NCBI GenBank assembly: GCA_012031975.1
Contig: JAAUSA010000034.1
Span: 1-32,363 of the forward strand
Source of the DNA: Alkalinema sp. RU_4_3
GTDB taxonomy: Bacteria; Cyanobacteriota; Cyanobacteriia; Leptolyngbyales; Leptolyngbyaceae
Length of the DNA stretch: 32,363 nucleotides
Reading direction: 5' to 3'
The translations under genes were made by a program, and so were the position numbers. Positions 3 through 30,548 of this stretch are shown piece by piece. Every line of letters starts with the position of its first letter. The stretch's first letter is position 1. Under the pieces are notes generated by a model. That model was not told the origin of the DNA. It worked only from the letters and a program-made list of their open reading frames with translations, and made no database searches.

Positions 3-559
3 CGGGGCGGCGGTGGGGGCGTGCTGATGATTTCCCTGGCGCGGGAGCTTTGCCCGGTGCTGACGGCGGTGATCCTGGCCGGACGGGTGGGCTCGGCCTT
101 CGCGGCGGAACTGGGCACCATGCAGGTGACGGAGCAGATCGATGCCCTCTACATGCTGCGACGGATCCCATCGACTACCTGGTGATTCCTCGGGTGATCG
201 CCTGCTGTGTCATGCTGCCCATCCTGACGATTTTCTCCCTCCTGACGGGCATGGCCGGGGGCATGCTGATCGCCGACAACATCTACGGCATCTCGAACAA
301 TCAGTTTCTCTCCTCGGCGCGGGGATTCATTTCCACCTGGGACATCTTTACGGCCCCCCTCAAGGCCATTGTTTTTGGATTGATTATTGCGGTGATTGGC
401 TGCAACTGGGGTCTAACTACCACAGGGGGCGCCAAAGGCGTGGGACAATCCACAACCACGGCCGTGGTAACGGCCCTGATGGCGATCTTCATCTCCAACT
501 TTTTCCTCTCTTGGATCATGTTCCAAGGATCCGGCACCATTAGCATCAAGAACGGTTAG
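3..559 (+). pseudogene. MlaE-family ABC transporter permease, 5'-truncated by the window and frameshifted
   Basis: Membrane permease of an Mla/TGD-type lipid ABC transporter, a family that moves phospholipid or related lipids between membranes with an ATPase and an MCE substrate-binding protein. The first part reads in one frame from position 3 ([18 protein letters not shown], then [15 protein letters not shown]) up to the codons for ALYML near 158. The family continues with a conserved [TV]DP..YLV.PR motif, which is present but in the next frame ([12 protein letters not shown] from 161). One base is therefore missing at about 159-161. From 161 to the stop at 559 the protein is intact, with hydrophobic segments and a GAKGVGQSTTTAVV loop before the last helix. 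As written, the upstream frame stops about 20 bases past the lesion. The 5' end lies outside the window. The family assignment is secure; whether the lesion is real or a sequencing error cannot be decided here. It ends 25 bases before tlyA. Confidence 0.85.
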
Positions 560-584
560 CCACCCTATCCCAAAACCCCCGCCC

Positions 585-1472
585 ATGAAAAAACAACGTC
601 TCGATAAGCTGCTCGTCGATCGCCAACTCTGCGACACCCGTGCCCTAGCCCAGCGAATCATCCAGGCTGGATCCGTCCAAGTCAATCATCAGGTGGTGGA
701 CAAGGCGGGGACCGAGGTGCCGATCGACGCCGAAATCCTAGTCAAGGCAAAACCACCCTATGTGTCGCGGGGCGGCGAGAAGCTGGCCAAGGCCCTGGCG
801 GTGTTTCCGGTGAGGGTGGCCGATCGCATCGCCCTCGACGGCGGCATTTCGACCGGGGGCTTTACCGACTGTCTGTTCCAAAATGGAGCCAAGCAGGTCT
901 ACGGGGTGGATGTGGGCTATGGTCAGGTGGCCTGGAATATCCGTACGGATCCACGCTTGGTTTTGCTAGAGCGCACCAATATTCGAGCCCTTCAACCAGA
1001 GGATCTTTATCCGGTCGGATCCGATCGCCCAGATTTGATGGTGGTGGATGTTTCTTTTATTTCGTTAGTTAAAGTTTTACCCGCCCTTTGGAATCTTTTG
1101 GTGGGAGTGAAGGAGGCAATTCTGTTGGTGAAGCCGCAATTTGAGGTGGGGCGCGATCGGATTGGCAAAAAGGGCGTTGTGCGGGACCCCTTTGACCAGG
1201 CGGACTCGATTCATCAGGTGATCCAGGCGGCGCGGGCCTTGGGTTGGACCTACCAGGACTTTACCTGGTCCCCCCTCGTCGGGCCAGCGGGCAACATTGA
1301 ATATCTGCTCTGGCTCTCTACGACGCCAGAACAGCCTGTACCTGACATTGAGATGTTGCAGGCTTTAGCCATCCAAGCCCGCCAAGCCCTGATCGGCCAG
1401 ACGCCTGAGGAGACAGATGAAATGTCGGGGACGCGAGACAAAACGTTAGACGGCATCCCAGGGGATGATTAG
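585..1472 (+). CDS. tlyA: TlyA family rRNA 2'-O-methyltransferase / hemolysin-like protein
   Basis: Predicted S-adenosylmethionine-dependent RNA 2'-O-methyltransferase; characterised TlyA proteins methylate cytidines in 16S and 23S rRNA. The 295-residue protein is close to the usual family length. An S4 RNA-binding domain occupies about residues 1-60 (RLDKLLVDR, then AGSVQVN), followed by the SRGGEKL motif (61-67) and an FtsJ-like Rossmann domain. The SAM loop is DGGISTGGFTD (85-95), where many homologues have DVGASTGGFTD. The catalytic-type residues K66, D155 (VVDVSFIS) and K183 (LVKPQFE) are present. The start ATG at 585 encodes the typical MKKQRLDKLL opening. It follows the MlaE-type permease by 25 bases and may be transcribed with it. 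It converges on the kinase gene that ends at 1527, with no clear terminator between them. The C-terminal 25 residues are polar and look unstructured. Confidence 0.93.
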   Translation: MKKQRLDKLLVDRQLCDTRALAQRIIQAGSVQVNHQVVDKAGTEVPIDAEILVKAKPPYVSRGGEKLAKALAVFPVRVADRIALDGGISTGGFTDCLFQNGAKQVYGVDVGYGQVAWNIRTDPRLVLLERTNIRALQPEDLYPVGSDRPDLMVVDVSFISLVKVLPALWNLLVGVKEAILLVKPQFEVGRDRIGKKGVVRDPFDQADSIHQVIQAARALGWTYQDFTWSPLVGPAGNIEYLLWLSTTPEQPVPDIEMLQALAIQARQALIGQTPEETDEMSGTRDKTLDGIPGDD

Positions 1473-1526: not shown

Positions 1527-2723
1527 CTAGGTTGATTCATCCCTCACCATCGACACCTTCACCGTCGTCCCACAGGCCACAAACCCCTCACCAATCCACC
1601 CACGAGCCAACCCCGGACTAAACACCTCAATGTCGCCCCCCATCGATCGCATCAGCTCCCGCGCAATACAGAGTCCTAAGCCCGTACCTGGAATCTCTCC
1701 CGCCGCCTGTACACCCCGAAAATGCCTCTCAAACAGGCGCTCCAAGTCCCCTGGGGGAATTCCCAAGCCATTGTCCGTAATGTAAACCTCGGCTCCCGTT
1801 GGAGTTCGCTGGGTGTAGACATGCACCTGGCCGGGTTCTGGCGTGTACTTAATCGCATTATCTACCAAGTTGCTCAACACCTCCCGTAGGGCCTGGGGAC
1901 TGCCCTCGATGGGCGGTAGTTCTGCTAAATCCGCCCGCAATACCAACCCCTTCTCCTGGGCGATCGCCTCAGCAGAAGCCAGCACAGGCCGCAAAATCCC
2001 GACCAAATCACAGGGTTCCAACACAAGCGGCGACTCCCCAAATAATCCCGCCGCTGGCAGGGCGGGCTGGGCCTGAATCGCCACGGTACCCGGTGCCACT
2101 TCAATGGCTTCATCCAAATGTAAATCAATGGCCGCATCGAACTGCAACAGCAATTCCTGGAGACGATCGCTCTCCCGCACAATGCTGGCCGCCACCTCAT
2201 GGTTGCTTTCTCCGGGTTGGAGCCGCCGCATCATCAGCTTGCCGAAGGTGCGCAGGGCCGTGAGGGGATTGCGAAACTGGTGGAGGAGATTGTCCATGCG
2301 ATCGTGCTGCTGGTCGAGCAGGCCCTGCTCCTGCTGCCGCCGCCGCTCTAGCCACTGCGATCGCTGATCCAACACACAGCTCAAGGTCAGGGTGCGCACC
2401 ACCTGGTCCACCTGCAGGCGCTCCGGGTCATTCCAAAGGCGATCGAGACGCTCTGCCACGAGCAAACCCAGCACCATGCCATCATGGTTGAGGGGGAGCA
2501 CTAGGCGATCGGGGGCCACAAGGCCCGCCTGAAATCGCACGGGCGGCAAAACCTCCTGGCTGCCGCCTTCGGGGAGGATGGCGATCGGCACCAGCTGCGG
2601 ATCGCGCTCACTGGCCCCCTCCGCCAGATAGATCGCCCCCATGGAGGCCCCCAACCCCTGGGTCAGGAGCTGCAACTGCGATTGGCAAAGTGCCAAAAAT
2701 TCAGGACTAGTGGGCAGCAGCAT
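1527..2723 (-). CDS. Sensor histidine kinase with N-terminal GAF-like domain, Hik2/CSK-like
   Basis: Soluble two-component sensor kinase of 398 residues with no membrane segment or signal peptide. Residues 10-125 look like a GAF-type sensor domain. A short coiled coil (about 118-145) leads to the phosphoacceptor box LLHQFRNPLTALRTF with H148. The HATPase domain follows, with the N box NLVDNAIKY (285-293), G1 DNGLGIP (317-323) and G2 GTGLGL (346-351). The LLHQFRNPLTALRTFGKL motif and the small N-terminal GAF domain match what I recall of Hik2, the cyanobacterial relative of chloroplast sensor kinase CSK, which reports the redox state of photosynthetic electron transport. That identification is from memory of motifs and not checked. 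No response regulator gene is adjacent, which is normal for cyanobacterial kinases. It is divergent from the DUF3155 gene, with about 340 bases between them. Confidence 0.88.
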   Translation of the reverse strand: MLLPTSPEFLALCQSQLQLLTQGLGASMGAIYLAEGASERDPQLVPIAILPEGGSQEVLPPVRFQAGLVAPDRLVLPLNHDGMVLGLLVAERLDRLWNDPERLQVDQVVRTLTLSCVLDQRSQWLERRRQQEQGLLDQQHDRMDNLLHQFRNPLTALRTFGKLMMRRLQPGESNHEVAASIVRESDRLQELLLQFDAAIDLHLDEAIEVAPGTVAIQAQPALPAAGLFGESPLVLEPCDLVGILRPVLASAEAIAQEKGLVLRADLAELPPIEGSPQALREVLSNLVDNAIKYTPEPGQVHVYTQRTPTGAEVYITDNGLGIPPGDLERLFERHFRGVQAAGEIPGTGLGLCIARELMRSMGGDIEVFSPGLARGWIGEGFVACGTTVKVSMVRDEST

Positions 2724-28942: not shown

Positions 28943-29629
28943 CTACGCCCGCAACAAGCCCAAACGATCGAACTGGCAAGTCTCCAACAATCGCGCAGAT
29001 TCCGGAGTGAGCTGGGCCTTCAACTTTAGAATCTCCTGCAACACCGCCAACTCTCGACTGTAGGATTCCTGCAAGGAAATCAGGGTTTCCGTTTGAACCG
29101 TTGTACCGTTGTTGCGTAATAAATAGATAACTAAATTGAGATTCGATAGCGGATTGCGCAATTCCTGATAGAAGAAATTCAACAATCCATCATGGTGACT
29201 GGCATTATAGGCTAATCCCGTGGTCGGTGCATTAGAAGGCTCAAGGGTTTCCTGGAGCGCCGCCTGCTTGGCAAACCTTGCCGCTATTGCCCCCAACAAT
29301 TCCTCCCCCGAACAGGGCTTTTGCAAATAGTCATCGGCCCCCAATTCCATGCCATAGCGGAAATCCGCCTTAGTACTGCGCGCCGTCAGAAAAATAAACG
29401 GCAAGGTCGCCGTCTCCGATTGCTGGCGCAGTTGGGTCAGTACCTGATAGCCATCAAGTTCCGGCAGATTCACATCACACAGGATCAAATCCGGACCCGC
29501 CGATCGCGCCAACCCTAAACCCTCCTGACCATTATCCGCATACAGCACCTCAAACCCCTCGGCCTCCAGCAGATCCAACAGTGAATCCCGAATCGCCTGC
29601 TCGTCCTCAATAACTAGAATTTTTCTCAT
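28943..29629 (-). CDS. Response regulator with C-terminal degenerate HisKA-like domain
   Basis: Protein of 228 residues. A complete receiver domain covers 1-120: acidic pair E8/D9, phosphoacceptor D52 in LILCDVNLPELDG, T82 (FIFLTARS) and K104 (DYLQKPCSGEE). Instead of a DNA-binding domain, residues about 140-215 look like the dimerisation helices of a histidine kinase: FFYQELRNPLSNLNLVIYLL matches the H-box pattern HExRNPL, but the His is replaced by Gln155, and no ATPase domain follows. It may act as a dimerisation or docking partner for the kinase. The start at 29629 (MRKILVIEDE) overlaps the kinase 3' end by 23 bases, showing a translationally coupled pair. A longer start at 29737 would place 36 non-family residues in front. 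Confidence 0.88.
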   Translation of the reverse strand: MRKILVIEDEQAIRDSLLDLLEAEGFEVLYADNGQEGLGLARSAGPDLILCDVNLPELDGYQVLTQLRQQSETATLPFIFLTARSTKADFRYGMELGADDYLQKPCSGEELLGAIAARFAKQAALQETLEPSNAPTTGLAYNASHHDGLLNFFYQELRNPLSNLNLVIYLLRNNGTTVQTETLISLQESYSRELAVLQEILKLKAQLTPESARLLETCQFDRLGLLRA

Positions 29630-30548
29630 CGGCCTGCACCCATTCGATCGGAAGTGTAACGGTAAAAATACTGCCATGGCCGGGCTGACTTTCCAAGGCA
29701 ATCTGGCCGCCCTGGACCTCAACACATTGCTTAACAATCGACAACCCCAAGCCCGTCCCCGGAATCCGTTTCACATTGCTCCCCCGAAAGAAAGCTGTAA
29801 ACAGCTGGGCCTGATCCGCCTCCGGAATCCCAATCCCCTGATCCTGTATTCGCAACACCGCCGTCTCGTCCCCCAACAGTAGACTAAAGGCGACTTCCGC
29901 ACCCTGGGGAGAATACTTAATTGCATTGGAGAGCAGGTTCGTCAGAATGTGACGCAGGAGTTTCTCATCGAGGCGGATGCGGGAATTGAGCGAGATTGGG
30001 TGGCTGCTCTGCTGGGTAAAGGCGATCGCGTCATGGTCCGTCTGGAGTTCGTCAATCACTTCGCGGCAGAAGTCTACGAGATCGATCGGCTGGGGACAGC
30101 AGACCAGTTTCCCGGCGTCGGTTTCGCCGATCACCAGCACATCATCGAGCAGCAGATTCATCCGTTTGACCGCAGTGTGGATGCGCTGGAAGTAGCTTTC
30201 GCGCTTTTCGCGGGTGACTTCGCCGCCGTAGCGTTGGAGGAGTTCGCTGGAAAACAGGATGGCGTTGAGGGGATTGCGGAATTCGTGGGCCACGACGGCA
30301 ACGAGGCGGGACTTCATCTCCACCTGTTCGTGGAAGCGATCCACGAGGGTGAGGCGATCGCTGGCCAGATCCAGCAGGGTTTGTAAATCTTGGAGGTCAA
30401 TGACGGCCTGGGGACTGTCACCTAGGAGGACGCTCTGGGGGGAGGAGATGATTTGGGGAATGGGTAAACCGAGGGCTGCGACTTGTTCAGTCAGAGCTGC
30501 GGGTACCGATCGCCCTGGGGCCTCGATCAGGATTGAGTTGTCTAGCAT
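29607..30548 (-). CDS. Sensor histidine kinase, partner of the adjacent response regulator
   Basis: Soluble kinase of 313 residues. The N-terminal 70 residues form a short unassigned sensor segment (LLGDSPQAVIDLQDLQTLLD) with no membrane helix, followed by a linker helix. The H box LVAVVAHEFRNPLNAI has the phosphoacceptor H88. The HATPase domain has the N box LSNAIKYSP, G1 DQGIGIP and G2 GTGLGLSIVKQ. The gene overlaps the response regulator gene by 23 bases, so they are expressed together. The input signal is unknown. Upstream is a 240-base gap shared with the divergent helicase gene. Confidence 0.93.
   Translation of the reverse strand: MLDNSILIEAPGRSVPAALTEQVAALGLPIPQIISSPQSVLLGDSPQAVIDLQDLQTLLDLASDRLTLVDRFHEQVEMKSRLVAVVAHEFRNPLNAILFSSELLQRYGGEVTREKRESYFQRIHTAVKRMNLLLDDVLVIGETDAGKLVCCPQPIDLVDFCREVIDELQTDHDAIAFTQQSSHPISLNSRIRLDEKLLRHILTNLLSNAIKYSPQGAEVAFSLLLGDETAVLRIQDQGIGIPEADQAQLFTAFFRGSNVKRIPGTGLGLSIVKQCVEVQGGQIALESQPGHGSIFTVTLPIEWVQADEKNSSY

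Follow-up and report, generated by a model that had tools for sequence, protein, structure and literature searches.

Pseudo-histidine kinases (PMC12632262) and receiver-type inhibitors of histidine kinases (PMC9430884) are already known; these and the other papers cited here are drawn on from extracts. DivL-type pseudo-histidine kinases, which are mentioned in PMC9430884, carry a DHp-like domain without the phosphorylated His (phospho-His) within a two-component network, as does the system described below. Osp, a response-regulator-like inhibitor of CckA, offers a second parallel, being a receiver-type protein that targets a histidine kinase rather than DNA, but it is unphosphorylated (PMC9430884), whereas the protein considered here has a complete receiver with a DHp-like domain attached. 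In the Pseudomonas RetS-GacS system a DHp-bearing protein is able to enter the DHp bundle of another kinase (PMC12148439), which is only a potential in our case; RetS is, however, a hybrid kinase, whereas ours is a receiver-DHp protein encoded by a gene that overlaps a kinase gene. CrdS shows that phosphatase activity may persist in a HisKA domain that has lost its His, with Asn needed at the fourth position after the His (+4) (PMC3510030). The order of domains, up to the DHp, is identical in cyanobacterial REC-DHp-ATPase proteins (L079, L085), but these retain both the ATPase domain and the His. The EnvZ DHp domain alone is reportedly counted with CrdS among the DHp phosphatases; the CrdS and EnvZ cases are whole kinases or engineered pieces, whereas here a natural domain lacking both the His and an ATPase domain is fused to a receiver. 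Unlike the regulators examined here, DivL is not known to contain a receiver, and it retains PAS and ATPase-like regions. In the open-licence literature, a search that left subscription papers mostly outside, we found no description of a family of receivers joined to His-less DHp domains and, in agreement with the initial annotation, no example of such a gene arranged with a kinase gene in this order.

The window analysed here is a stretch of 32,363 nucleotides from Alkalinema sp. RU_4_3, and its features are collected in Table 1. The initial annotation described a response regulator with a complete receiver and a HisKA-like hairpin that has Gln155 in the place of the phospho-His and lacks an ATPase domain, and stated that its gene overlaps that of a kinase. 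Both points were borne out, the former by the receiver match, the CAG codon and the kinship of the hairpin with HisKA, the latter by an overlap between two genes that both lie on the minus strand. The start codon of the regulator is backed by an alignment with 10 orthologues. The receiver has the acid pair E8/D9, the phospho-acceptor D52, T82 and K104, and these residues are kept in the orthologue alignment. The H-box reads YQELRNPLSN; Glu156, Arg158, Asn159 and Pro160 are retained, whereas the phospho-His of histidine kinases is absent and replaced by Gln155. The Asn at the +4 position, the HisKA phosphatase position, is thus present as N159. No HATPase match was obtained within the regulator, and the chain stops 11 residues past the last predicted helix, which leaves no room for such a domain.

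Table 1. Features of the regulator-kinase locus and of a second kinase gene in the window.
Feature	Position in window	Strand	Basis or remarks
Response regulator gene, receiver plus His-less DHp-like domain	28943..29629	-	228 aa, ATG at 29629, no internal stop
Receiver domain, residues 4-115	29285..29620	-	PF00072, E 9.5e-29
DHp-like hairpin and short third helix, residues 144-217	28979..29200	-	low-confidence predicted helices, HisKA profile kinship, family alignment
Gln155 codon CAG, phospho-His position	29165..29167	-	Glu156 at +1, Asn159 at +4
Partner histidine kinase, 313 aa	29607..30548	-	HisKA E 5.6e-16, HATPase E 1.5e-29; His88 in AHEFRNPLNA
Kinase/regulator overlap, 23 nt	29607..29629	-	equal length in most orthologous loci examined
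Kinase N-terminus, residues 1-67	30348..30548	-	receiver remnant; no REC match in the window's kinase (L001), whole REC in most orthologues
Second histidine kinase, with HQFRNPLTALRTFGKL	1530-2723	-	

When PF00512 (HisKA) was compared with the regulator alone, residues 155-202 aligned with profile positions 11-59 at E 0.22 (12.1 bits, curated cut-off 26.9), and E was 0.05 with the isolated domain. Three relatives lay above the cut-off (L073, E 2.4e-10; L104, 6e-9; L079, 6.3e-8), and L029 fell exactly at it. A profile made from 22 relatives that align across the whole stretch, none of which has the His, matched histidine kinases only among PDB sequences, seven of them at E≤0.01 and the best at 3.8e-4. 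Because relatives clear the PF00512 cut-off and the PDB matches are histidine kinases only, the HisKA assignment is right beyond chance and, judged by sequence, the C-terminal hairpin is a HisKA/DHp relative. AlphaFold2 placed helices at residues 144-158, 163-173, 180-189, 191-202 and 209-217, which is compatible with a hairpin, albeit at a low confidence (pLDDT 62, or 66.5 with the domain alone). Searches by Foldseek and VIA-align with the low-confidence domain model gave a best E of 2.1 and a best Z of 3.5 with no histidine kinase among the matches, a result that has little meaning with so weak a model.

Residues 130-228 were used to search 58 related genomes, and 14 close-orthologue loci (about 45-58% identity, E 1e-18 or better) were recovered together with distant ones. 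When 388 genomes of the class were searched with a profile, 192 contained matches at E≤1e-10; counted together in this figure are short frames of the receiver-DHp type, most of them 226-320 aa in length, and longer frames of kinases. For comparison of the H-box positions we used 66 non-redundant cyanobacterial regulators, a chosen sample and not a census, whose sources included 40 regions from the listed short-frame rows (other listed rows were left out) and 12 named loci, among them Phormidesmis priestleyi, Myxacorys and Leptolyngbya sp. Duplicates in the C-terminal sequence were removed, as were matches below 35 bits and any protein that matched an ATPase domain. The pattern with which the named loci were scanned contained FYQELRNP, and the same family was also recovered without it. 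A receiver was detected in 65 of the 66 proteins. The His position is occupied by Q in 39, E in 13, V in 4, I in 3, L in 2, H in 2 and D, M and Y in 1 each, so that the His is missing from 64/66 (the exceptions being L073 and L078), a count that is biased because the profile for the sample was built from His-less members only. An acidic residue is found at +1 in 59 proteins (E 36, D 23; N 5, G 2), R at +3 in 56 (S in the other 10), and Pro at +5 in 64. The +4 position is more varied (N 33, D 9, E 9, T 6, H 4, R 3, Q 2): it is N in all 18 members of the window's clade, as set apart by a tree of DHp segments, whereas among the 48 outside this clade it is N or T in 21 and D, E, H, R or Q in 27. 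The chain extends 0-17 residues beyond the matched hairpin, save in L100 (110) and L112 (97). We conclude that the regulator belongs to a family of cyanobacterial response regulators in which a kinase-dead DHp domain forms the output, hereafter called dead-DHp regulators.

Several loci of the family depart from this plan. The L100 and L112 regulators, from another cyanobacterial family, have a conserved Trp-rich end, TYWKFKTGFPEWSRSRDP, in their extra segment of about 100 residues; it had no Pfam or NCBIfam match above cut-off (best NCBIfam E 0.028, with the L112 tail) and matched only designed proteins in the PDB. Both regulators sit downstream of a kinase with HRVKNN, a type of kinase that we take to be HisKA_2. 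Such an HRVKNN kinase is also found just upstream of a partner-type kinase and a dead-DHp regulator in L119, L123 and L088, and a three-protein relay is possible there. In one genome (G014; L012/L115) the regulator has no receiver and a 114-aa frame holding only the dead DHp domain follows an intact kinase, owing to either a real deletion or an assembly error. A REC-GGDEF-EAL gene lies downstream of the regulator in L073, L077 and L094, and also, as judged only by length and a receiver match, in L092 and L095; this gene order suggests a link of some dead-DHp regulators to cyclic-di-GMP. The genome from which the window is derived carries a further locus (L039, 1837-6975 of G000:C353, minus strand) that encodes, one after another, a 142-aa HisKA-only protein, a dead-DHp regulator in which Leu takes the place of the His, a REC-DHp-ATPase protein whose His is replaced by Gln, and additional pieces of receivers and kinases. 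The second kinase in the window presumably resembles Hik2/CSK, and no NCBIfam equivalog scored above cut-off with it. A plasmid search was swamped by receiver matches.

When other cyanobacteria were surveyed for the same gene pair, as the initial annotation had proposed, the pair was found to recur. Within the window's family a regulator orthologue (profile E≤1e-19) is present in 19/42 genomes. Scores with a profile of the orthologous kinase left the interval from 336 to 390 bits empty; 17/42 genomes lay above it (at least 390 bits), and in each of the 17 the regulator is on the same contig and adjoins the kinase. In the 23 genomes lacking the regulator, no orthologous kinase was detected at 390 bits or more, the best score being 336. 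The two regulator-bearing genomes with no high-scoring kinase are G290, where a kinase fragment of 152 columns lies on a different contig, and G024, in which the regulator is near the contig end (locus L114). In 35 of the 66 loci of the sample, the regulator is preceded on its own strand by a histidine kinase or HisKA protein that ends no more than 420 nt away. These comprise all 16 members of the window's clade with enough upstream sequence (L114 and L122, whose contigs end 144 and 263 nt away, are outside the 16) and 19 of the 48 outside this clade. The window shares its 23-nt overlap with L116, L117, L118, L119, L121, L123 and L124; the overlap is 1 nt in L120, the genes are separated by a 147-nt gap in L113, and the start of the L115 regulator could not be set for this comparison. 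Co-occurrence, adjacency and the conserved overlap together indicate that kinase and regulator behave as one unit, and since so odd a gene pair is kept in many cyanobacteria, the worn-down DHp part is probably still functional. On the kinase side, the N-terminal receiver of the L013 kinase (3-1040, plus strand) has Gly at the phospho-Asp position (LILMGIHL); as with the receiver remnant of the window's kinase, the input receivers of the kinases are decaying while the H-box of the regulators stays invariant.

Invariant columns among 11 orthologous regulators are distributed unevenly along the chain. The stretch around the H-box (residues 147-165) has 16/19 such columns and the rest of helix 1 only 1/10; the corresponding values are 7/27 in helix 2, 6/22 in the tail, 2/24 in the linker and 58/119 in the receiver. 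In 13 orthologous kinases, for which columns were counted by eye, the same two parts of helix 1 have 9/19 and 5/10. The marked difference between the H-box and the rest of helix 1 in the regulators argues that selection acts on the old active-site face, which in kinases is where receivers dock.

Our preferred reading, to which we assign a probability of roughly 0.4, is that the regulator ends in a kinase-dead, receiver-docking, phosphatase-like DHp output that would be under the control of its own receiver, with the overlapping kinase as the putative donor. The kinase would phosphorylate D52, and the phosphorylated receiver would control a homodimeric bundle of the DHp-like domain, whose conserved face, Y154-Q155-E156-L157-R158-N159-P160, may dock a receiver in the fashion of a DHp domain. 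Given that Gln155 excludes phosphotransfer and that Asn159 is kept, the domain in the window's clade most likely speeds the dephosphorylation of a receiver, either that of the regulator itself within the dimer or that of another regulator; these are likelier targets than the receiver of the partner kinase, since the window's kinase has lost most of it. The regulator could then be a self-limiting switch or a phosphate sink that trims the output of the kinase. According to the extract of PMC3510030, CrdS with the H371A substitution retains phosphatase activity (half-life 2.6 min, versus 53.5 min without CrdS), E372 at +1 serves the kinase reaction only, and N375, which corresponds to +4, is required for the phosphatase reaction and for that alone, N375A, N375Q and N375D being dead. 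Two points count against the phosphatase-like output. The acidic residue at +1, dedicated in CrdS to the kinase reaction, persists where no kinase remains, for which the model gives no explanation, and the ATP-binding domain, absent here, aids DHp phosphatase activity (extract of PMC7005713). Furthermore, a phosphatase role cannot hold for the family as a whole, since just 21 of the 48 proteins outside the window's clade have N or T at +4. The wider proposal, that the dead-DHp regulators would form a widespread, unrecognised cyanobacterial class of split-off DHp phosphatases in which phosphorylation by the locked kinase switches on receiver dephosphorylation, we consider doubtful.

One could envisage instead that the hairpin is a phosphorylation-controlled dimeriser or scaffold, that is, a four-helix dimerisation or protein-binding output with neither receiver docking nor catalysis. 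Both helices keep their hydrophobic positions while the His has given way to Q, E, V, I, L, D, M or Y, and L100 and L112 append their extra residues behind the hairpin as if it were an internal dimer module, but no library or sequence match names that tail. A pure dimeriser should keep the bundle half of the domain, and so should a protein that enters mixed bundles; the window's clade shows the opposite, conservation being far higher in the exposed H-box than in the bundle part, a pattern that argues against both. A dimeriser or scaffold is for this reason a rather doubtful alternative to receiver docking.

The initial annotation suggested mixed bundles with the kinase that tune phosphorylation. 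In such a reading the hairpin would insert itself into the kinase's dimerisation domain and block or tune autophosphorylation in the manner of RetS on GacS. The kinase and regulator are gained and lost together with their conserved 23-nt overlap, RetS-GacS DHp heterodimers are documented in the extract of PMC12148439, and the best, though weak, PDB matches of the 22-relative profile are chains 7z8n (E 3.8e-4) and 7n0e (6e-4), which that same source identifies as GacS. The hairpin is nevertheless far from the DHp domain of its partner. With a profile of the regulators, eight GAF-type kinases that carry SHELRTPMSNMKMAIHML (L031-L038) score 61-64 bits, partner-type kinases at most 22 bits and the window's own kinase 13.0 bits. 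Alignment scores between the hairpin and the kinase DHp were also no higher within pairs than between them. For 31 pairs the within-pair score was 33.6 versus 35.2 between pairs (1829/2000 permutations at least as high), for the 16 pairs of the window's clade 26.4 versus 27.8 (1736/2000), and for the 15 other pairs 41.1 versus 38.8 (273/2000), in what is a weak test. The part of helix 1 that would form the bundle is, moreover, hardly conserved (1/10). The proposal of a mixed bundle with the partner kinase thus found no support, from either the pair similarities or the stretch of helix following the H-box, which is the least conserved part of the hairpin, and we regard it as unlikely.

Nor is the H-box of the regulator very similar to the AHEFRNPLNA box of the kinase, as the initial annotation had stated: the regulator groups with other dead DHp domains and with GAF-type kinases rather than with its partner, so that the likeness is that of the generic HisKA RNPL core. 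Of the 122 DHp segments in a tree built from 76 columns, the 66 that come from regulators all fell on one side of a branch with an SH-aLRT value of 99; the regulator side adjoins the GAF-type kinases (94, not starred), and the partner kinases of the window's clade and of most other clades are placed elsewhere. When 11 long or odd rows were removed, the value for the regulator/kinase split was 100; both trees were made by a quick method. We also considered whether the hairpin had arisen as a copy of the DHp domain in the partner kinase and rejected this origin on the basis of the profile scores, the monophyly of the regulators (99 and 100) and their shared C-terminal tail motif. The rejection does not rest on the AU test, in which joining the regulator and kinase DHp segments of the window's clade was not rejected (p 0.245), as can be expected from 76 columns. 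The REC-DHp-ATPase proteins are likely the ancestral form of the dead-DHp regulators. Near some of these regulators we observed another receiver-kinase type, REC-DHp-ATPase with an LPxEL box, in which L003, L026 and L097 contrast with L070, L085 and L088: three of these six proteins keep the His, and the other three have Gln, Arg or Tyr instead; ATPase motifs remain in two of the latter, and the third is cut by the end of the locus.

The resemblance to GAF-type kinases, seen in the scores and in the trees, raises the question of whether the regulator poisons the dimers of that class. Several well-covered regulator-bearing genomes, G014, G024 and G031 among them, had no further match at E≤1e-10 among the best 13 candidates per genome, which indicates that at this limit they contain no GAF-type kinase, and such partnering is very improbable. 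That the gene is a functionless, decaying remnant of a REC-DHp-ATPase kinase is scarcely credible, for although REC-DHp-ATPase proteins adjoin some family members and one genome (L012/L115) has lost the receiver part, the family is spread across many cyanobacterial genomes with an invariant H-box, a conserved tail motif and a strict linkage to the kinase.

Among HisKA domains in general the phospho-His is missing in 722 of 76,471, or 0.9%, according to the extract of PMC12632262, versus 64/66 in this one receiver-linked family. Kinase-dead DHp modules are here used as outputs of response regulators, beyond their occurrence in modified kinases. In 17 thermophilic cyanobacteria, 5.1-23.1% of regulators were assigned to a class of unknown output (extract of PMC9953108), and dead-DHp regulators could hide in this class. 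If the dead DHp domain docks receivers, the family would provide a natural test of which DHp functions outlast the loss of the His, and many cyanobacterial regulators consisting of a receiver and an unknown output would acquire a testable role.
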